DNA from: Paenibacillus sp. FSL R5-0341
GTDB taxonomy: Bacteria > Bacillota > Bacilli > Paenibacillales > Paenibacillaceae
Assembly: GCF_037975235.1 (NCBI RefSeq)
Contig: NZ_CP150241.1
Location: 3,782,001-3,846,000 of the forward strand
Direction of reading: 5' to 3'
Length of the DNA: 64,000 nucleotides
Shown: piece after piece, positions 529 through 16,373 of the stretch
Layout of the letters: each line of letters opens with the position of its first letter
Position numbering within the stretch: position 1 is the stretch's first letter
Made by a program: the position numbers and the translations under genes
The notes under the pieces: generated by a model
Seen by the model: the letters and a program-made list of their open reading frames with translations, nothing else
What the model was told of the DNA's origin: nothing
Database searches by the model: none

Positions 529-1082
529 CCCTCTAATAAATATTCATTCTGAAGCCTGAAACTTTGAATCGTATTGGAGCCTGTGTTAGTTAGAACAATT
601 TCAGGACTGGCACATTCGTCCCCCACTGACAAAACTTTTATAGTCTCAGGTGAATTAACGATCGTCTCCTCCAGCATGTTTTCATCACTTTCCGGAAAAG
701 GATGTTCTCCCATCTTGATCGGGATTGTCAGTTCTCCATCAAAAAGAATCTTCTCAATATCAAGCGTTCCGGCATACCGACCGATGTATCTCCTTCCTGG
801 TAAATCATCGAAAGTGAATACGATATCCCCTTTTTTCACATTAAAAAGAGCCGCCACTTGGGCGACTCTTCTATGATAGTCAAGGGTAGTATCATCAGCC
901 ATGACGATACACTCCAGGTTAATTAATCTTGGACCATAGGTGCTACCAAAATCGATCTCTCCATCCCGTCCTGCAATTTCGAGACTGTAGTCCCTCGTTG
1001 GCGGCAAGACCGGGATGTTGTGTTTTTTTAAACCAAGTCCAATTGATCGGAATGACTTACCGTTCGCTGTAGCGTCAATCAT
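525..1082 (-). CDS. Distal tail (Dit)-like protein, Sipho_tail family
   Basis: A 185-residue protein just downstream of the tape measure gene, the usual place for the distal tail protein that caps the tail tube and docks the baseplate. The N-terminal pattern (PPTRDYSLEIAGRDGEIDFG, then GPRLINLECIV and HRRVAQVAALFN) fits the N-terminal domain of the Sipho_tail/Dit family. It is shorter than many Dit proteins (250 residues or more), so the C-terminal galectin-like domain may be missing or reduced. Its start overlaps the tape measure stop by one base (TGATG). Confidence 0.7.
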   Translation of the reverse strand: MIDATANGKSFRSIGLGLKKHNIPVLPPTRDYSLEIAGRDGEIDFGSTYGPRLINLECIVMADDTTLDYHRRVAQVAALFNVKKGDIVFTFDDLPGRRYIGRYAGTLDIEKILFDGELTIPIKMGEHPFPESDENMLEETIVNSPETIKVLSVGDECASPEIVLTNTGSNTIQSFRLQNEYLLEG

Positions 1083-4000
1083 CAGCCTTTACCTCCCTTT
1101 GCCTGCATCCTCCGCATCAAATTATCGCGTTCACTCCAGAAGACCTTCGCAGCCGATTCATCCGCGATATAAGTATCTCCTGATTTAATTACGAATTGAT
1201 TACTGGTTCTCTCCGGATTTACTCCGTTTGAACCTTGAGGAACTGAGAATTCAGGCATTGTGAAGTCTAGTCTATGCATCCGAAGGTTTAAAAGATTAAA
1301 TAACGAATCCTGTTGACGGTCATTAAGGATAGCTTCTCCAGCGTGCGCAATAACTGGTACAGCCGCACCGCGAGGACCTTTGACTACTCCCCCTTCACTA
1401 AAATGCTGGAGTTTCCCTGTATCTTTATCGATTCCATATTTCTTACGAATGGCATCGTTTTGTTCTTGAAGGAGTCGCATGGTTTCAGCATCACCACGGG
1501 CTTTAGCTGCATCCCAAGCATCCTTGTTGGCGTTATAGGTGTACAGATCAATTTCCTTTTGATATGCAGAGTCCTTCGAAGCGGTTCCTGGAGCCAAAGC
1601 TCCCCCAGAGACATCGGTCATTCCAAGTGAAGCACTTGCCGCAGCAATCTGATCAAGACGGCTCTGATATTCCAAAACAAATGCATCAAGCATTCCGAGT
1701 ATCGTTTCGTTCTTCTCGCTCTCCTTCAAAATCTGAATATTTTTCAGATTCTCGGCAGACAGCTCAGTATTCGAAGAGAATTCATCAAAAGCGGAAGAGA
1801 GATTATCATAATGCGTTTTAGCATCTTGAATTTTATCGTCAAAATCTTTTTCACGAGTTGTTTTTTCCTCTTGTAACGCCGTTTTCTGATCTTCGAGCGC
1901 CTGTTTCGCAAGTTTACGACCATGTTCACGATCCAGATCCTCAATATCCTTTTGGACTTGCTTCCGCTCAGCAATACCCTCTGGACCAACGGCAGACTGG
2001 AGCTTTTCAAGACGAGCAACTTTCTCTGCTCGCTGTCTCTCATAGTCATCCTGATCATTACTTCTCTCCATGGCTTGAATCAGATCGTCAATAGCTTTGA
2101 TTTTGGCTTCTTGTGCTGAGGTGAATGCGTCCTTCTCCGCTTGGATACGTTTAATTTCCTCATCTCTCGCGCTGTCCAATAGCTTTTTCTGTTTCGTTAC
2201 CAATTCAGATACTGCCTTGGTCATTTCGTCCATCAGTTTTTTCTTTAGATCGTAGACCTTCTCATCCGCATCCATTCGTTGATCGCTTCCTACAAGGTAA
2301 GCTGCCTGAAGCTTCATATACTCTGCAAGTTCCTGCTGAGTAGTCATTTCGCCGATGGCCTTCAAGTGGTTGATCCGTTTTTCAGCAGCAGAGTAGTATT
2401 CTTTATCTAGATCCAGTCTCTGCTTATATATTTTTTGTTCAATATCCCATTGTTGTTCAGCAGATAGGGTTTTATCAGCCTGCATTTTCAGGTACTCTTG
2501 CAGCTCCCATTTCATGATGTCTACTTTTTGAGCACCGGACATTTCCATTTTCAAAGCTTCTTTAGTCATCCACTTTTCAGAAAATTCATAACGAGATGCA
2601 ATCAATTTCTTGGAAGTATCTTGATACATTTTCTCTGCTTCGGCTCGTTGCTCTGCTTTTAGTGTGGTATCGTTGCGCATACGATTGTATGCTTCAGCTT
2701 GCATTTGGTAAATTTCAACCTCGGACTTACCTTGACGTTCCATCTGATCGGTTTGTTTATCGATCCAATTCGTAGAATTTTTAAATTTCAGATCCGTAAC
2801 CTTGTTCGTCAAGTCATACACTTGTTTAGCTGATTCAACACGCTGTTCCTCAGTGAGGGCCGTATTCTTGAGTTGCCCCTGATAAAACTGAAGTTGCGTC
2901 TTGGTCATTTCCATTTCGGAACGGCCTTGTTGACGCATGCGTTCAACACGAGCTTCCATATTGGCCTGTGCGGTATCGAATTGGTCGCTGGCATACTGAT
3001 CCTTCATGTCTTCTTTCTCAGACTGCACATCCCCGATTTTCTCAGTCAGGCTTCGCCGCTTATTAGTCAATTCATCCGATTTTAGCCCGGACTGTTCGAT
3101 CATCTGACGCTGCTCCTGCATCAGTTTCTGTATTTCTGTTTTAAGTTTCAATTGAAGTTCATATTCGGCTTTGTACTCTTGGGAGTCTTTCTTCATGTTC
3201 TTCTGCCGCGTTTCAGATTGTTTTAAAGACAACTCTTTGTCGGAGATTTTCATATCCTTAATGCCAAGTTTACTTTCAAGTTCCGAGACATCAATGTTAT
3301 AAAGTTCATCACTAATACGAAGCAGCTCACTATCAGCAGTGTTTTTTGCATCCTTCAATTGCTTCTGTGTAGGTTGTGTAGTTGTACTGGTCTTTTGAGG
3401 AGAATAATCAGCTAAAACTTTATCTACATAACCAACATCTCCGTACACCTTACTCTTATAGACTTTTTTGTATTTTTCAGAATAAGCAACCATGTCAGAT
3501 TGATTGTACCCGCCCGACTTTTTAAACCAATCGATGATTCCAGATCCCATGTTGTATCCGCCCAGAGCCATGGCGACATCTCCGCCAGATTTCTTCAGTA
3601 ACTCGGAGAGCATCTTAGTTCCTGCATCAATACTCTGTTTTACTGTCGCATTGTTCATGCCGTTAACTTGCATGACATTGGTTACGCCCTTAGCTCCAAA
3701 AGTTGATTCGCGTTGGATCACAGCAGCGACAAGGTATGGGTCAACATTGAATTGATTAGCAGCAGCATTAATCTCAGAAGCGTATTTGCCTGCATATGCC
3801 ACTCCGCTAGAGGTCGTTTGCGTACTAGTGGATGTAGGGTAAGCAGCATCTGTCGAAAGCCCAGGAATACGAGTTGCTCCGTTGTATTTCGGTGCCCAAT
3901 AGCTATTATTTAAATCGGAGACCTTTAACCCCGATTCCCCCATTTGAATAAACTTACTGTCTCCCATATAAATTCCGACATGTGAGTTGTCCTTACCATT

Positions 4001-7000
4001 CGTATTAAAGAAGACAAGGTCTCCAACTTGTAGGTTTTTCTTCGATACCGCAGTTCCCGCTTTAGCTTGTTGAGCTGCTGTACGCGGTACCTGTACTCCG
4101 ATCGTTTCAAACATCTCCTGCACAAACTGAGAACAGTCTGAATAGGCTCGTTGTTTGAAGTCATCAAACGAACCGGTAAATTCACCGCCTATTTGCTTGT
4201 ATCTCATCACACCCGAGTTAGCCAGGTCGACAGCAGTGGATAGCATTCTAGTAATATCTGAAGACGGTGACCCGCTTGTTGTTACTTCTGCTTGTGATGA
4301 TACGAGTTGTGATGGATCGTTGTATCCTTGCTCGTAAAGCTTTTGTTCCTCCAGCAATGCCTTACGTTTCTCTGCAAGTATATCAAGATATTCTTTGGAT
4401 GACTTCGCAACTCTTTTCTGTTGTGAATCCAATTTTTCCAAGGACTTATTGTAGCCTTCAATCGCCTTCTGTAAGTCCGTCATAATTTCTACGGTTTCTT
4501 TTTTGGCCTTGTTATTTTCTTCTACCCCGTAAGTGTCATCTTCCAGAAGCTTAGTCATGGCTTCGATCTGGTCATTGCTCAACTGTAGTTGACCAGCATA
4601 TTTTTTAACGACATCGTTTAACTCATTAAGTTTTTGTTTTTTAGCTTCAAGTTGCTCATTAGCCTTTTGTTGAAGAAAATTAGCTATGCCTTGATTCATA
4701 AGCTGCGTGCTATTCAATTCAGAAGCATTCTTCTTCTGCTCCTCGGTAATTTCTTTTTCAATATCTTTAATTTTCTCGCGTGCTTCAGCAAAAGTTGAGA
4801 TAGACTCAAACTCTTGCCCATAGAATTGAATTCGTTTTAAACTTTCCATCGCAACGCTTCGTGTTGAATCCCTCTCAGCCTTCAGATCATCAATAGCTTT
4901 CTTGATCTTCACTTGCCTTAATTTTTCTAGAATTTGACTTTCAAATATCCATCCATCCGTTGTTTTCCGGATCTGAGAAGCCAATTCAGGATATTTTAGA
5001 ATCAAGTCTGCTACATTAGATGCACTTAATGACTGTCCTTTGGAGAGGGCGTCCGCAACTTGGTTCAGCTCAGAAACGGAAGAAACACTGGCTTGAACGG
5101 ACTCTCTCAGAGCCTTAGTCTGCTCAACCAGTTTTTCAGTCAGTTCTTCAATCGTATCGGATGCCTTCCCATTTATCCCCGCCAAAGCATCTATTTCTTT
5201 TTGAGCTTCGACTGATTCTACGGTCATTTGTTGCATTTGGACATTCGCATCACTTAATGATGCTTCAAGTTCGCGATTTTTGGTCTCTAAAGAGTCCATT
5301 TTCAATCGTAAATTCTCCAGTTGGTTGGATGATTCGTCCACGCTTTTGAAACTGAAGATGTTCTTCATAAACTCCATGCCGCCAGCGATCAAACTATTTT
5401 CAAGAGACTCTATCTTCTCCTTCGTTTTTTCAATAGCTGCGATGTTTTCATTCATTTGGTTCTGTAAACCGTTTTTCTGATCTTCTAATACAGCTTTTCT
5501 GGCTTCCCTTTGCTTATCAATGAGTGAATTAAGCGCAGCAATTTGTGTTTGAGTTGCCTCATCCGTGAACCCCGCAGCTTCAAGCTGTGCCAATCCTTCT
5601 TTACCTATAGTCATCGCCAGAGCCTTAGATATCTCTTCCAGTTGACGTTTCGCCTGTTCCTGTTTACTTGTGGATAGCGTTCCGCCATCAATCATCGCTT
5701 TTAAAGAATTGTGAGCATTGACCATCTTCGGCAACAAATCAATCTGACGTTGATACTGACTTATCATTTGTTGACTCGCCGAATCGTTGTCCTTCATCAT
5801 CTGAATCCGATCACGTTCTGCTTTTTCGGCTTCCCCACTTTTCATAGCAAAAATAGCGATAGCTCCGACAAGTAGAGATAGTCCCGCAGTTGCCGCCGCC
5901 ATAGTAACCGTAGCAGCAGCCTGCGCCCTGCTCAATGCACCGGTTGCCACTGTTGCCGTGGTGGTCGCTACAGCTTGTGCTTCCCGTGCGGCTGTCTGCT
6001 GAACTGTGGAGATAGTTACACCTTCACTGGAAACGATATTAACTGTATTCGCAGCAGAATTCGCTGCTGTTGCAGTTGTACTGGCAACTGTTGTAACAGT
6101 CTCTTGCGCTTTTGCGGCATTCAGAACTTGAATTGCAGCTATTACAGACGCAATAGGACCGCTAAGAGCCTTATACGCCAACAGTAGTCCACTTAGTCCA
6201 GCAGCAGCGGCGTAGACGCCTGTCGGTATTTTCGTCAAACCGATCAATAACTGATCAATGCCATCTAGTACGTCTTTAATCATCTGACGCAATCCATCTT
6301 CGCCGGCAGTGTTAAAGATTTCAAGAAGTGACGTTCTGGTCTGAGCAGCCTTTCGCTGGATAGTATCCATTTGTACGGTCAAATACTGCATCGTAGATCC
6401 GGAAGAACCAACAGAAGCAGCAGTACCCAGCAAGATATCCCCTACGTTTAATGAAGCGGCCAGTTTTGCATATTGGTAAACACCACGAGAAATATCTGCA
6501 TATGACTGAGTTAGATCATAGTTCTTGTCTGTTACCTGAATGGAGAGGTCCAAGAGAATATCTTCCGCTTTACGCCATTGTTCAACCCCGTCTACAACCT
6601 CCTTGGTTTTAACACCAAGACGCTCAATCTCATCCACTGCTTTATCCGTCCGAATCGTACCTAGAACTGTTTTCCACATGTTACCGAGGTTTTCCCCGGA
6701 CAACGCCGTATTACGAACACCGGCAGAGATCAATCCGTTCATCACGTCAAATGACACACCTGTTTCCGCAGCAATTTTACCAGTACGTTGAAAAGCGGCT
6801 CCAAGGTCACGCGCCGGAGCCATAGTGTCATGGGCAACTTTTGACCAGGAATCCAGGACCCTGTTACCAATAACCATAGCTTCGTTGGCATTGGTGATAT
6901 GGACTCCATATTGAGACATTACAGATTCCATGGACTTGGTAGCGTCCTCAAGCTCAACCATGTCCACCGTGGACAGCTTAGTAGATTGACGCACAAGCTC

Positions 7001-7984
7001 TTGAACAACGTTAACATCTTTGTACATACGGCCCCAGAGACGTGCTGATTCCGTGACGTCCAAAATGTTGGAACCGAGTTCGTGAGCAGTTTGGATAAAG
7101 GCTTTTGTCTCGCGGTTTAGCTTTTGAGTATCCATAACCATTTTGTTTGTGCCGTCTTCAAAATGAACAAAATAGTGTTCATTCGTCTGCACGTATCCGG
7201 CCATGTTTGACTCGATGTCTACTAAGCCCTCATGCATTGCCTGCGTGACTTCATGCATTGCTTTATACATTGTGTGGAACACAACGGCATGTGTAGCCAT
7301 GTCACCTAATCTACCGATCCAGCTTTTAGAAACAGCATCCATTGTGGACCCCATCCGTTTGGTTTGCTGTTCAGTTTGAGACAAAGCTTGTCGAATCCGC
7401 TGTTCCTCTTGCAACACTTTTTCCCGGAGAGCTTCTTCTTTTCTCTGGCGTTCTGTCAGAGCAACACGTATCTTCTGTTCCTCTTGCAGTACACGCTCTC
7501 TGGTTCGGTCATCCGTTCCTGTACCTGTTGCTTTTGCAGCCTCCTGCCCGGTCTTGACAGAACGATTCTGAAGAATCTGCATCTTTTGTTGATGTTCACG
7601 TTCAGATTGCTCAATCTGCTGATTCCTTCTTTTGATCAATGCTTGTTGTGCCTGCATCTTAGCATCAATCAAACGATTGGTTTGTTCCAACTGTTGAGCC
7701 TTGGCACCAAGTAAGGCTGTTTGAGCGAGTTTTTGCTTATGTTGAGCTTCAGCTTCAGCGAGTATCTTTTGGCGGCGTTGATCCGCAGTTAAGGCCATCT
7801 TATCCATTGCTGAAGATATATTCTTGTATGACTTCTCAGCGGATGATAACTCAACATTCAGCGCCTTGAACGCATCAGCATTACCTTTAGCACCCGTATC
7901 AATGTTTTTAAATGATTGTAGCACTGTACCGGTGTCTAATTTTATCCGCGCAGCAACGACATCTCTATTTGTACCCTCTGCCAT
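1082..7984 (-). CDS. Tape measure protein with internal NlpC/P60 and lytic transglycosylase domains
   Basis: A 2300-residue tape measure protein, which sets tail length and passes through the tail into the cell envelope on infection. Layout: N-terminal coiled coil (about 30-220); phage minor-tail core (about 290-480, with VSFDVMNGLISAGVRNTALSGE); hydrophobic segments (about 590-710); long coiled coils; an NlpC/P60-type peptidase (about 1265-1360) with Cys1284 in DCSQF and His1335 in SHVGIY; then an SLT-type transglycosylase (about 1390-1480) with Glu1426 in IQRES followed by GGYNMGSG. More coiled coil follows, ending in the HFSEGGVV...VIAHAGEAIL motif common at tape measure C-termini. Two different wall-cutting activities in one tape measure suggest local digestion of thick peptidoglycan. 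No internal stop is seen over 6.9 kb. Confidence 0.93.
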   Translation of the reverse strand: MAEGTNRDVVAARIKLDTGTVLQSFKNIDTGAKGNADAFKALNVELSSAEKSYKNISSAMDKMALTADQRRQKILAEAEAQHKQKLAQTALLGAKAQQLEQTNRLIDAKMQAQQALIKRRNQQIEQSEREHQQKMQILQNRSVKTGQEAAKATGTGTDDRTRERVLQEEQKIRVALTERQRKEEALREKVLQEEQRIRQALSQTEQQTKRMGSTMDAVSKSWIGRLGDMATHAVVFHTMYKAMHEVTQAMHEGLVDIESNMAGYVQTNEHYFVHFEDGTNKMVMDTQKLNRETKAFIQTAHELGSNILDVTESARLWGRMYKDVNVVQELVRQSTKLSTVDMVELEDATKSMESVMSQYGVHITNANEAMVIGNRVLDSWSKVAHDTMAPARDLGAAFQRTGKIAAETGVSFDVMNGLISAGVRNTALSGENLGNMWKTVLGTIRTDKAVDEIERLGVKTKEVVDGVEQWRKAEDILLDLSIQVTDKNYDLTQSYADISRGVYQYAKLAASLNVGDILLGTAASVGSSGSTMQYLTVQMDTIQRKAAQTRTSLLEIFNTAGEDGLRQMIKDVLDGIDQLLIGLTKIPTGVYAAAAGLSGLLLAYKALSGPIASVIAAIQVLNAAKAQETVTTVASTTATAANSAANTVNIVSSEGVTISTVQQTAAREAQAVATTTATVATGALSRAQAAATVTMAAATAGLSLLVGAIAIFAMKSGEAEKAERDRIQMMKDNDSASQQMISQYQRQIDLLPKMVNAHNSLKAMIDGGTLSTSKQEQAKRQLEEISKALAMTIGKEGLAQLEAAGFTDEATQTQIAALNSLIDKQREARKAVLEDQKNGLQNQMNENIAAIEKTKEKIESLENSLIAGGMEFMKNIFSFKSVDESSNQLENLRLKMDSLETKNRELEASLSDANVQMQQMTVESVEAQKEIDALAGINGKASDTIEELTEKLVEQTKALRESVQASVSSVSELNQVADALSKGQSLSASNVADLILKYPELASQIRKTTDGWIFESQILEKLRQVKIKKAIDDLKAERDSTRSVAMESLKRIQFYGQEFESISTFAEAREKIKDIEKEITEEQKKNASELNSTQLMNQGIANFLQQKANEQLEAKKQKLNELNDVVKKYAGQLQLSNDQIEAMTKLLEDDTYGVEENNKAKKETVEIMTDLQKAIEGYNKSLEKLDSQQKRVAKSSKEYLDILAEKRKALLEEQKLYEQGYNDPSQLVSSQAEVTTSGSPSSDITRMLSTAVDLANSGVMRYKQIGGEFTGSFDDFKQRAYSDCSQFVQEMFETIGVQVPRTAAQQAKAGTAVSKKNLQVGDLVFFNTNGKDNSHVGIYMGDSKFIQMGESGLKVSDLNNSYWAPKYNGATRIPGLSTDAAYPTSTSTQTTSSGVAYAGKYASEINAAANQFNVDPYLVAAVIQRESTFGAKGVTNVMQVNGMNNATVKQSIDAGTKMLSELLKKSGGDVAMALGGYNMGSGIIDWFKKSGGYNQSDMVAYSEKYKKVYKSKVYGDVGYVDKVLADYSPQKTSTTTQPTQKQLKDAKNTADSELLRISDELYNIDVSELESKLGIKDMKISDKELSLKQSETRQKNMKKDSQEYKAEYELQLKLKTEIQKLMQEQRQMIEQSGLKSDELTNKRRSLTEKIGDVQSEKEDMKDQYASDQFDTAQANMEARVERMRQQGRSEMEMTKTQLQFYQGQLKNTALTEEQRVESAKQVYDLTNKVTDLKFKNSTNWIDKQTDQMERQGKSEVEIYQMQAEAYNRMRNDTTLKAEQRAEAEKMYQDTSKKLIASRYEFSEKWMTKEALKMEMSGAQKVDIMKWELQEYLKMQADKTLSAEQQWDIEQKIYKQRLDLDKEYYSAAEKRINHLKAIGEMTTQQELAEYMKLQAAYLVGSDQRMDADEKVYDLKKKLMDEMTKAVSELVTKQKKLLDSARDEEIKRIQAEKDAFTSAQEAKIKAIDDLIQAMERSNDQDDYERQRAEKVARLEKLQSAVGPEGIAERKQVQKDIEDLDREHGRKLAKQALEDQKTALQEEKTTREKDFDDKIQDAKTHYDNLSSAFDEFSSNTELSAENLKNIQILKESEKNETILGMLDAFVLEYQSRLDQIAAASASLGMTDVSGGALAPGTASKDSAYQKEIDLYTYNANKDAWDAAKARGDAETMRLLQEQNDAIRKKYGIDKDTGKLQHFSEGGVVKGPRGAAVPVIAHAGEAILNDRQQDSLFNLLNLRMHRLDFTMPEFSVPQGSNGVNPERTSNQFVIKSGDTYIADESAAKVFWSERDNLMRRMQAKGGKG

Positions 7985-7996
7985 ATTGTCTCCTTC

Positions 7997-8287
7997 CTAC
8001 CTTGGCTGGAAGAAACCAAGATCGGATAAGTATTTTGCTTTCTTCGGCTTTTTGTTTTCAACCGAACCGCCATGAAGAGTGATTTCGAATTCACGAGAAC
8101 GCTGTTTTTCATTCATCAGTGCTCGTATTTTAGGTATGGTCATATTAGGCCACTCTGTATCTGAAATTCCATTGCTGATACAGAGCGCCCACAGACCCAT
8201 CCAGTCCGTTCCTGGTTGGTCTACTTCACCTTCATCCGAACCCTCATCATCACCGGAATCAGGATCTGGAGGAAAAGACTCCTTATA
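7997..8287 (-). CDS. Tail assembly chaperone, T domain (read by +1 frameshift from the upstream frame)
   Basis: This frame (96 codons after the proposed slip) encodes an acidic linker (PPDPDSGDDEGSDEGEVDQP) and then TDWMGLWALCISNGISDTEW...IRALMNEKQRSREF, the aromatic/LM pattern of the T part of lambda gpGT-like chaperones. It lies between the tail tube and tape measure genes, the conserved site for G/GT pairs. It has no credible ribosome-binding site of its own, and the open frame extends back under the upstream gene. The product is therefore probably a fusion to the 8283-8648 frame. An independently started short protein from the ATG at 8353 is possible but less likely. Confidence 0.7.
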   Translation of the reverse strand, partial: YKESFPPDPDSGDDEGSDEGEVDQPGTDWMGLWALCISNGISDTEWPNMTIPKIRALMNEKQRSREFEITLHGGSVENKKPKKAKYLSDLGFFQPR

Positions 8288-8648
8288 GAAATCGGTCCAA
8301 AACATCATCCAATGCCTGGATGCCCTCCATGTCCACTTGTTCACACTCTTCATCCGTTAGGCCATCAACAAAGATCATGTCAAATGCTTTCAAATACGCC
8401 TGCTCAATAGCTGGGCAATCAATGGCCGGAATAACTTGTTCTTCTACTTGTGTTGCTTCAATTGGGTCGCGCCCGATGACGTAACTAAACCGAATTCCTT
8501 TGAGATTCTTAGCATGCTGCCTTACTTCCCGGATCAACTTTATTGTCCCGACCTTGATAGTCTTATGGATACCTTCAGCCAAACGTACTGTGCTTCCAAT
8601 ATTCAAAGTCTGATCCAATGTTTTCTCTTCTTGTTCAACTTCACTCAT
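8283..8648 (-). CDS. Tail assembly chaperone, G domain
   Basis: A 121-residue protein (MSEVEQEEK...DVLDRFL). Start chosen at the second ATG, 7 bases after AAAGGAG; the ATG at 8654 is too close to that site. Size, acidic N-terminus and position between the tail tube gene and the tape measure fit the gpG-type chaperone that coats the tape measure during tail assembly. Its 3' end overlaps a second open frame that encodes a T-like domain (7997-8287), as expected for a G/GT frameshift pair. Confidence 0.72.
   Translation of the reverse strand: MSEVEQEEKTLDQTLNIGSTVRLAEGIHKTIKVGTIKLIREVRQHAKNLKGIRFSYVIGRDPIEATQVEEQVIPAIDCPAIEQAYLKAFDMIFVDGLTDEECEQVDMEGIQALDDVLDRFL
8285..8294 (-). promoter_or_regulatory. 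Candidate +1 programmed frameshift site (TTT C)
   Basis: On the minus strand the first frame ends CGA TTT CTA TAA. The downstream frame reads GAT TTC TAT AAG. A Phe tRNA on TTT (8291-8289) can re-pair perfectly with TTC after sliding one base forward, just two codons before the stop. The result would be ...VLDRF-YKESFPPDP. Reading-frame geometry (+1, or -2) is read directly from the sequence; the exact slip codon is inference. A purine-rich GGAGGGC lies about 30 bases upstream. Confidence 0.5.
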
Positions 8649-8684
8649 GTTCATTCTCCTTTGAATTGAAATATAGTTTTTACC

Positions 8685-8729: not shown

Positions 8730-9500
8730 TTAAATTCCGAACTTGATAGTCATTGCATGACCATTCGGGTTATCTGGTGTGCGTTCAGGCTCCATGACTT
8801 GCAAATCCATGGTGGAAGTATTAGCTTTTTTACGTTCTTGGGATACGTCAAGCGTACCACCGCCGAGTGCTTTGTAAATAGTGAGTTGGCATTGAATCTC
8901 ATCGTTCGTTTTGTCATCGATCAGCTTGAATCTGTGCGTGAACTTGAACGCTGTTGGGCGACGAGTCCCATCGAATGAAGTTTCCGTGCCCTGGTTAGAC
9001 CACTTGTAGGTAACAAGAAGCTCTTTATCATTATTTGCCGTGGTAGATTCGATCACTCCCTCAGCAGTAATCGTGTATTGTTGATCGGTCGGCGTTGATG
9101 CCACGCGAGTAAGTTGAGTTAATGCATCAGTATCCGGGTCCTTGAGATAGACTTCGTCACTGTCGGCTACCAAGGTTTCTCCGAAGGCTAGTTTGTATTC
9201 GCCATTCTTCAGAAAAGCTGTTTCTGTTTCGTCAAACACAATTTCTTTCTTCTCTGTTTTACCGCCTTGAGACATATCAGCGATAGCTGCGGAGTAACGC
9301 GGCACTTCGATACTTACTTTGTCTTGTAGATCCCCTGCTGTGTAGTGGAATGCATATCCACTGTCGCCACCCATGACTGCCTGCCAGTCAAATTGCAGTT
9401 GTAAAGTAACCTTTGTTACCTTGTCCTCAACGTACTTAATTGTGTTATCCAAATTACGGGCTACGATTGTTCCTACGCCATCAAAAACGAGTGGTCTCAT
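8730..9500 (-). CDS. Major tail tube protein
   Basis: A 256-residue protein (MRPLVFDGVGTIVARNLDN...) with an AAGGAGG site upstream of the ATG. Composition (beta-rich, repeated Thr/Val, no membrane segment), size, and position just before the G/GT chaperones and tape measure identify it as the protein that polymerises into the tail tube. The C-terminal stretch EPERTPDNPNGHAMTIKFGI and the segment FKFTHRFKLIDDKTNDEIQC look like the conserved tube fold core. A strong terminator directly follows it, which is typical for a highly expressed structural gene. Confidence 0.75.
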   Translation of the reverse strand: MRPLVFDGVGTIVARNLDNTIKYVEDKVTKVTLQLQFDWQAVMGGDSGYAFHYTAGDLQDKVSIEVPRYSAAIADMSQGGKTEKKEIVFDETETAFLKNGEYKLAFGETLVADSDEVYLKDPDTDALTQLTRVASTPTDQQYTITAEGVIESTTANNDKELLVTYKWSNQGTETSFDGTRRPTAFKFTHRFKLIDDKTNDEIQCQLTIYKALGGGTLDVSQERKKANTSTMDLQVMEPERTPDNPNGHAMTIKFGI

Positions 9501-12173: not shown

Positions 12174-13187
12174 TCACGCCACTGTAGCAAAAATGTGCCA
12201 GTTGACGTATTTCAAACGTGGCAGCACAGTTGCCCCGTTAATTACTTGCCATTGGTCAGGGTCGCCTTGAATCAGTTTAGCGAGTGCGAATTTTCCGGTG
12301 TGACCAGTAAAGATGTCTTCGTAGTTGTTCGGGCTCGTCACTAGGTCCATGATAGAACCTGTCATGCCTTGACCAATGATGATTACAGCGTTGTCAGGGA
12401 TAAACGGGTAGAACGTTCCTGTATCGTCAATGTATCCACCATCATACACTTCGTATTGAAGACCATTCAGGTTTTGGCTGACGATTTCTGAAAGCGAACC
12501 ATCTGTTACAATATCTTTGCCGTAGGTGAATTTGATCAGATCGCGAATTTTTTCGTTTTGCTTCAAGTAACTGTCCACTTTTTTATTAGCTACAACTTTA
12601 ACACCTCTTGCGCCACTCCCCCTGAATCTAAGAAGCCATTCATCAAGATTTTTCAAAGGATCAGCAGTTGCGATATTGTTCCAAAGGACATCAGCTGTAG
12701 GCTTGTTATTTGCCGGAACGCCGTAGTCGATTGTCCGAGAAGGTTTATTCGCAGTTGCTGGAACAACAAGGCTGCCTGTAAGTGATTGCCAACGCATCCA
12801 CTCGAATCGAGTTTCAAGACGTTGGTTGAGATTCACCATTTTTTCAATCATGTATTCTTCGCCCCAAGTTTGCTCAAGGCTCGTGCCCGGCTTACGAAGA
12901 GTAGCAATCTTTTCTCGATCAATGATTGCCTTCTCACGCCATTCCTGGTTGGTGAATTCCATTTGTTTCACAACAGGAGCGGCATGGATCGGTGAGGGAT
13001 CATTGAGTCCAGTAGGTGGGGTCATGCCGGTATCGTCGTAGGTAACATCATATTTAATGGTCAGCCCGAGTTCTGGTTTGAAATCCACACCATTTGTCAG
13101 GATTTGAGCACCTCGAAAACTGTTAATATCTGTCCGAATGTTCTGAACGACTTCCGTAAGGAAGTACGGGTCGAGTACGTTTGCCAT
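12174..13187 (-). CDS. Major capsid protein (lambda gpE / Phage_cap_E family)
   Basis: A 337-residue protein. The start MANVLDPYFLTEVVQNIRTDINSFRG..., GVDFKPELGLTIKYDVTYDDTGMTPPTGL, the segment REKAIIDREKIATLRKPGT, and the C-terminal YEVYDGGYIDDTGTFYPFIPDNAVIIIGQG are characteristic of gpE-type capsid proteins with the HK97 fold. It assembles the icosahedral shell. It lies after the decoration protein gene and the protease gene, the lambda-like order protease - D - E. Confidence 0.9.
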   Translation of the reverse strand: MANVLDPYFLTEVVQNIRTDINSFRGAQILTNGVDFKPELGLTIKYDVTYDDTGMTPPTGLNDPSPIHAAPVVKQMEFTNQEWREKAIIDREKIATLRKPGTSLEQTWGEEYMIEKMVNLNQRLETRFEWMRWQSLTGSLVVPATANKPSRTIDYGVPANNKPTADVLWNNIATADPLKNLDEWLLRFRGSGARGVKVVANKKVDSYLKQNEKIRDLIKFTYGKDIVTDGSLSEIVSQNLNGLQYEVYDGGYIDDTGTFYPFIPDNAVIIIGQGMTGSIMDLVTSPNNYEDIFTGHTGKFALAKLIQGDPDQWQVINGATVLPRLKYVNWHIFATVA

Positions 13188-14906: not shown

Positions 14907-16355
14907 TCAACTCGGTGAATTATGATCGTTATCATCAGACCCATACTTCTTCTCAAGACCGGCAAGCAACTCAGACGGTATATTAGGATCAAGCCCCATA
15001 ATCCACCGTGCTTCTGTCGCCGCTTCTTTGGCAGTGATGTAGCGTTCTTTCTCCGCCAGTACATAGTTGTTAAGCTTCGCTCTCAGATCACGCTCTCTCT
15101 CCATTTCAGAACGTAGATCAATCGGAGCGTAGTCTGTCTCTACCAGGGTTTGAACGCCACGCACTCTTGCAGCAATAGAAAAAGCCCGCTTCCAGAAACG
15201 CTTGGTTACGTTTCGAGCGGACTCTACTGACTTGATATATATTTGAGTATCCACGGAGCTGTAAGTCTCAGTAGAACCTTGATGCCTGGATAGTAATGTG
15301 AGCAACGTTTTCAATCCAGTTGCCATCTGCGTATCGATAATATCAATCAATTTCTTAATATCAATCATTGGGCCTGCATTCCCACCCTTGAGATATTCAA
15401 CCTTCACACTGTCCCAGTGAATCATAGCATCGTCTGGATTAAGCGAATTAAAATGTCCCATAATTTCACTCATACGTTCAGTCAACCACTTTTGCTGACC
15501 AGCAGGATTATTCTTATATTGATTAGGCATGTTTTTTAATAAAACTTCCTCAACCACGGATATATCCAACCTTGGGTATCCCTGATTGTGAACAACTGCC
15601 TTCAAGTCCTGCAAAACCTGTAAATGAAAAAACACCGCTTGAAGAACTGGTAATATCGGTGTTCGCCCATACGGATCATCAATCATTGGATCGAACTCTT
15701 CATAAATGAATGTCGGCGTATCGATCTTCTTATACTGACCAAACCAATCTTCGCCCACACGAGGACGTGGATTCTTGATGTATTGCCAAGGCACAAGTCG
15801 ATTCGTCCCCTCTTCTCTCCTAAACCAAATCGTCGCAGGGTCAACAGGTATGATATCAATCACATCGTTACAACGATCGTTAAGAACTACTTCACCAGCA
15901 CAAGCTCCACGCACCATGATCATCATCCGCTGAATCGTATCAAGCTTGTCCAGAGACCTTCCATGCTGATAACCAGTTGAGGGAAGTGGAGAATCCAGTA
16001 AGTTCTTGATTGCATCTAACATTCGCTGCCCGTTCTTGTCGTCACTACCACTCTGCTTCTTTGCTGTAAATGTAAGTGGAGTGTCACCCATACGCAAAAA
16101 ATTGTAGAGCGCATGCGAAATATCGGGATGAACAGACACAAGAATCTCAAGCAATTCCTCAGCTGTATGGTTTTGGAGTTTAGTCAGATCAATATTATGA
16201 GCGCTCTGGTACTTTTTCGGGAGCCAATTGAATATATCCCATCCGTTTGATGACCCGGGCGAGGTCATTCTACCAATCCCCATCATCTGCCGCTTTACGG
16301 CAGCCGGAAGAACTGAATTCGCAAATGAATAAATGGCTTTATGATACCATTTCAA
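14907..16355 (-). CDS. Portal protein
   Basis: About 482 residues. The TTG start at 16355 is preferred because GGAGG lies 7 bases upstream; the in-frame ATG at 16373 abuts a terminator T-tract and has no ribosome-binding site. Features: PDISHALYNFLRMGDTPLTF, DRCNDVIDIIPVDPATIWFRRE, FIYEEFDPMIDDPYGRTPILP and GLKTLLTLLSRHQGSTETYSSVDTQIY, typical of siphovirus portals. It forms the dodecameric DNA entry ring. It is separated from terL by 6 kb of accessory genes, although normally the two adjoin. Confidence 0.87.
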   Translation of the reverse strand: MKWYHKAIYSFANSVLPAAVKRQMMGIGRMTSPGSSNGWDIFNWLPKKYQSAHNIDLTKLQNHTAEELLEILVSVHPDISHALYNFLRMGDTPLTFTAKKQSGSDDKNGQRMLDAIKNLLDSPLPSTGYQHGRSLDKLDTIQRMMIMVRGACAGEVVLNDRCNDVIDIIPVDPATIWFRREEGTNRLVPWQYIKNPRPRVGEDWFGQYKKIDTPTFIYEEFDPMIDDPYGRTPILPVLQAVFFHLQVLQDLKAVVHNQGYPRLDISVVEEVLLKNMPNQYKNNPAGQQKWLTERMSEIMGHFNSLNPDDAMIHWDSVKVEYLKGGNAGPMIDIKKLIDIIDTQMATGLKTLLTLLSRHQGSTETYSSVDTQIYIKSVESARNVTKRFWKRAFSIAARVRGVQTLVETDYAPIDLRSEMERERDLRAKLNNYVLAEKERYITAKEAATEARWIMGLDPNIPSELLAGLEKKYGSDDNDHNSPS

Positions 16356-16373
16356 TGCTTCACCTCCAGACAT

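Follow-up and report, generated by a model that had tools for sequence, protein, structure and literature searches.

The 64,000-nt window analyzed here (the whole stretch of DNA under study) holds a prophage in which two overlapping reading frames, termed G and T, adjoin in the tail gene region, raising the question of whether and where ribosomes pass from one to the other. The structural genes of the prophage lie on the minus strand and include those for the portal (14907-16373; PHROG 3753), major capsid protein E (12174-13187), a major tail protein (8730-9500; assigned by position and gene order, PHROG 2729 'virion structural protein'), the tape measure protein (1082-7984, 2300 aa; PHROG 4211, E 5.9e-43) and Dit (525-1082). 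Pfam analysis of the tape measure protein revealed NlpC/P60 and SLT lytic domains, both located mid-protein. The G/T pair is situated between the major tail and tape measure proteins, which is the location of lambda G/GT-type tail chaperones. Gene G (8283-8654, minus strand) is an open reading frame of 123 aa that begins with ATG and is preceded by a Shine-Dalgarno-like AAGGAGA; the T domain as read after a shift (7997-8287, minus strand) runs from TAT AAG GAG to TAG and comprises 96 aa (YKESFPPDP...LSDLGFFQPR).

Comparison of G and T with PHROGs and Pfam gave no convincing match. The AlphaFold2 model of G had a pLDDT of 79, and a Foldseek search with it returned weak viral matches, several of which are named tail assembly chaperones, including Mu FS-gp41; none was significant, the best having an E value of about 0.2. 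The model of T was poorer than that of G, and its fold search gave no useful match. Because neither a family nor a significant fold match was obtained, G was assigned as the short form of a tail assembly chaperone from gene order together with its frame-switch anatomy, and a chaperone function of G and G-T would be that expected from synteny.

On the minus strand, positions 8294-8283 read CGA TTT CTA TAA, exactly as the preliminary description had reported. G terminates at the TAA (8285-8283), and the T frame, which is +1 to G, is open over positions 8356-7997. The TTT codon (8291-8289), which follows CGA (8294-8292), is able to re-pair on TTC (8290-8288), whose C is supplied by the zero-frame A-site codon CTA (8288-8286). 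The junction peptide predicted earlier, DRF-YKESFPPDP, would follow directly from these frames and a slip at TTT C. The window contains the decamer CGATTTCTAT once, against 0.23 occurrences expected by chance, and the 6.57-Mb genome contains it 11 times; its single occurrence in the window is therefore no evidence, and the evidence lies in its conservation.

To collect related loci, profiles of G and T were applied to genomes of the genus, family, order, class and phylum and to viral contigs. Merging of identical sequences left 53 distinct junctions, which came from prophages of the Paenibacillaceae type and from viral contigs; G and T are intact in 51 of them. The class and phylum searches found no members of the G/T family beyond the order, and a named phage collection gave no match to G or T, even when a divergent member served as the query. 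Further queries with the most divergent members yielded no new junctions, and the set is near saturation for the collections searched. Among the 51 intact junctions the median identity of G was 53% and the minimum 37%; clustering at 90% reduced them to 24-26 representatives, and the 51 are thus not independent samples. Broken copies were also encountered. In a decayed prophage (L044 and L099; G067, contig 17), a deletion joins part of the portal gene in frame with the T domain. Second, frameshifted GT copies (L016/L053 in G025; L108/L249 in viral contig 2922696095_000003) were found on contigs that also carry an intact copy, and L016 retains CGATTTCTATAA despite G and T being broken elsewhere.

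The T frame was +1 relative to G in all 51 intact junctions, as had been proposed for the window, and CGA_TTT_C was invariant throughout. The codon after CGA_TTT was CTA in 47 junctions and CTT in four, and this was followed by TAA (30 junctions), TGA (8), TAG (2), TTC and then TGA (10) or TAT and then TGA (1). Since the stop varies in identity and position, and 11 of 51 junctions have a sense codon after CTA, the stop lies outside the slip site. Codon changes were counted on a protein tree of joined G and T. CGA underwent no change, compared with 14, 19 and 22 changes for the remaining three invariant Arg positions in G, and TTT underwent none, compared with 9-14 at other invariant phenylalanines; the remaining amino-acid-conserved codons of G and T changed 3-22 times each. 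Judged from these counts, the constraints on CGA and TTT are at the codon level rather than the protein level. The preliminary description had named relatives that keep the frames but lose TTT C as one observation that would speak against a frameshift; TTT C was retained in every intact junction, and the frameshift reading survives. Its proposed site can nevertheless be refined: the conserved unit takes in the CGA before TTT (8294-8289), the stop codon is incidental, and the fixation of CGA suggests a role in the E site.

The place of the switch could be narrowed from both sides. In 23 of the 51 relatives, the T frame is interrupted by a stop codon 9 nt upstream of TAT, the first shifted codon, so that reading in the T frame starts there no earlier than xxC GAT TTC. 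Downstream, T residues 3, 4, 6 and 8 (ESxPxD) hardly vary, although their codons have undergone many synonymous changes (8-12 changes on the tree); by this measure residues 3-8 are under protein-level selection, and translation in the T frame must already be running there. Together, the upstream stop and the conserved residues confine the switch to a few codons, and within this stretch TTT to TTC is the only cognate +1 re-pairing. At the level of sequence, we regard the frames, the location, the confinement of the switch and the selection on codons CGA and TTT as established.

An independent T gene with its own start codon would make a frameshift unnecessary, and the window offers candidate starts, its T frame containing ATGs upstream of the junction (at 8353, and a tandem ATG ATG near 8310). 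However, the tandem ATG lacks a well-spaced Shine-Dalgarno sequence (a GGAGGG lies about 15 nt off), and in the 23 relatives closed upstream the next ATG, GTG or TTG in the T frame occurs 4-48 codons on, at a distance of at least 19 codons and past the conserved ESFPPD in all but one. Separate initiation would also leave the complete lack of change at CGA and TTT unexplained, and we consider it very unlikely.

The variable stop bears on a second possibility, a +1 slip of the prfB kind, in which slow decoding of an A-site stop codon is the driving force. The window has a stop directly after CTA, and in four relatives (L097, L104, L107 and L131) CTT TAA replaces CTA, with Phe instead of Tyr as the first T residue; there an RF2-style slip of CTT to TTT before TAA could also occur. 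However, the A-site codon is CTA or CTT rather than a stop, CTA is unable to re-pair on TAT, a sense codon intervenes in the 11 junctions noted above, the identity of the stop varies, and no Shine-Dalgarno sequence precedes the slip codon at a distance of about 3 nt. Such a mechanism is likewise very unlikely.

A -2 slip such as that of phage Mu ends in the same frame as a +1 slip, and the preliminary description had accordingly allowed "+1 (or -2)". The +1 part of this statement is upheld by the re-pairing on TTT C, whereas the -2 part is not: within the confined stretch a -2 slip would leave every codon without re-pairing, the closest candidates sharing one of the first two bases and TTT none. 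The slip site of the Mu type is GGGCGA-like, and no such site is present; we regard a -2 slip as extremely unlikely. A sequencing error, a pseudogene or transcriptional slippage has a negligible probability. The locus does have decayed copies (L016, L044 and L108), but the frame change is identical in kind and place in 51 distinct junctions, and the run of only three T residues is far below the length needed for polymerase slippage.

G and T are thus very probably joined by a +1 programmed frameshift at CGA_TTT_C into a lambda G/GT-type chaperone fusion, as far as comparative sequence data can indicate. In the mechanism that we infer, which covers the ribosomal slip itself, its efficiency and the roles of CGA in the E site and CUA in the A site, G and T would together make up a tail assembly chaperone of the lambda G/GT type. 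The majority of ribosomes would read G through to its stop. In a minority, tRNA-Phe would occupy UUU in the P site, with CGA just in the E site and the A site awaiting the rare CUA; the tRNA, held on UUU by a wobble G-U pair, would gain perfect pairing on UUC by a +1 slip. The shifted ribosomes would continue in the T frame, and their product would be G-T, joined at ...LDRF-YKESFPP.... Coating of the tape measure protein would fall to G, and recruitment of the tail tube protein to the T part.

The decoding context of the host was examined with its tRNA genes and with codon usage from 276 genes in 20 sampled 20-kb stretches. Among the 101 tRNA genes, the Arg anticodons are ACG (4), CCG (1) and TCT (2), with none for TCG. 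Without a tRNA-Arg(UCG), decoding of CGA should fall to the ACG (inosine) tRNA alone and involve a poor I-A pair, consistent with a weak E site; weak E-site pairing has been proposed to favor +1 shifting, and bacterial ribosomes shift +1 at UUU_Y unusually readily, even when no stop codon follows (PMC5009743). CTA is the rarest Leu codon in the sampled genes (6%), and two gene copies of tRNA-Leu(UAG) are present. Since CTT also occurs (4 of 51), the argument for the A site is weaker than that for the E site, and slow decoding at CUA would be the weakest link of the mechanism; CTA as a strictly required rare codon is ruled out by the four CTT relatives. The A or T at the third position may instead ensure that the T part begins with Tyr or Phe. 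No stimulatory RNA structure was detected on either the upstream or the downstream side, where mean z values were about -0.2 to -0.5; in the window the downstream z values were +0.29 and -0.04. In 17 of 24 representatives, but not in the lineage of the window, a Shine-Dalgarno-like AAGGAG precedes TTT by 18-20 nt; it probably arises from conserved KEL codons and is too distant for known stimulators. There is perhaps an even chance that CGA_UUU_C is a minimal bacterial +1 cassette, in which CGA in the E site, with its weak inosine-adenine pair, is essential and no stop, internal Shine-Dalgarno sequence or RNA structure is needed.

The arrangement resembles that of lambda G/GT as outlined in the accounts of that system (Xu, Hendrix and Duda 2004; reviewed in PMC5009743), in which a short G and a longer G-T are also encoded between the tail tube and tape measure genes, with the switch near the end of G; no sequence homology between the two pairs was detectable. 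In lambda and most other tail chaperones the shift is -1, whereas that of the Paenibacillus pair would be +1, at a single P-site codon (T frame +1 in 51 of 51). A -1 shift is usual in tail chaperones but not required, and +1 and -2 forms have been described. A second frame that overlaps the first and lacks its own start was found in the 23 relatives closed upstream; the window itself has the upstream ATGs described above. The same direction and the same kind of gene are found in the +1 tail chaperone shift predicted for HSTV-2 (PMC5009743) and in the actinophage set of PRFect (PMC10885494), which contains 350 annotated forward cases and consists mostly of tail chaperones. Those cases are annotations or predictions with generic motifs, whereas the Paenibacillus family has one fixed site and a variable stop. 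SPP1 (PMC6316719) is likewise a Firmicute siphophage whose tail genes carry programmed shifts. Its 17.5, the functional counterpart of G, has a putative -1 shift at UUUUUUC in contrast to the +1 shift at G/T, and the +1 shift of 17.1 takes place at CCC_UAA, with a stop codon in the A site instead of CTA or CTT.

The slip site itself is closest in kind to the bacterial UUU_Y sites (the UUU-pyrimidine work, YopN-TyeA and a rhizobial ICE), which, as cited in PMC5009743, also have UUU in the P site, followed by a pyrimidine, and require no stop. In our set, P-site UUU followed by a pyrimidine stood at the switch in 51 of 51 junctions, as TTT_C. The Paenibacillus site differs from the other bacterial sites in its invariant CGA before UUU, its position in a phage tail gene and CUA or CUU in the A site. 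Influenza PA-X (UCC_UUU_CGU) and amalgaviruses (UUU_CGN) also shift from P-site UUU to UUC after a special preceding codon and with no evident stimulatory structure (PMC5009743, PMC5052127). These sites operate on eukaryotic ribosomes with UCC before UUU and CGN after it, whereas here CGA precedes and CUW follows, and CGA_UUU_CUW does not match a UCC_UUU_CGN cassette of the PA-X type. A literature search of open-licence papers for CGA_UUU with frameshifting returned nothing relevant; a frameshift of this type is already known, and the site, with CGA_UUU_C fixed and the stop free to vary, appears to be new.

Forward frameshift sites are hard to recognize because they share no general motif. Here, natural mutagenesis across a diverse phage family spared only CGA_UUU_CU and left the stop variable, which offers in CGA_UUU_C a compact sequence with which the influence of the E-site codon on bacterial +1 slipping can be tested. 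The family also indicates that a +1 tail chaperone fusion can persist stably throughout a phage family, and the G-T fusion can be annotated in these prophages by a simple rule based on CGA_UUU_C. Among the 276 sampled host genes, CGA_TTT_C occurred three times in frame and 7 and 12 times out of frame, numbers too small to judge avoidance. Elsewhere in the same genome, near C1:4657660 (L182), a host open reading frame of approximately 459 codons contains CGA TTT CTA TTC in frame near its start, and might undergo low-level frameshifting at CGA TTT CTA.
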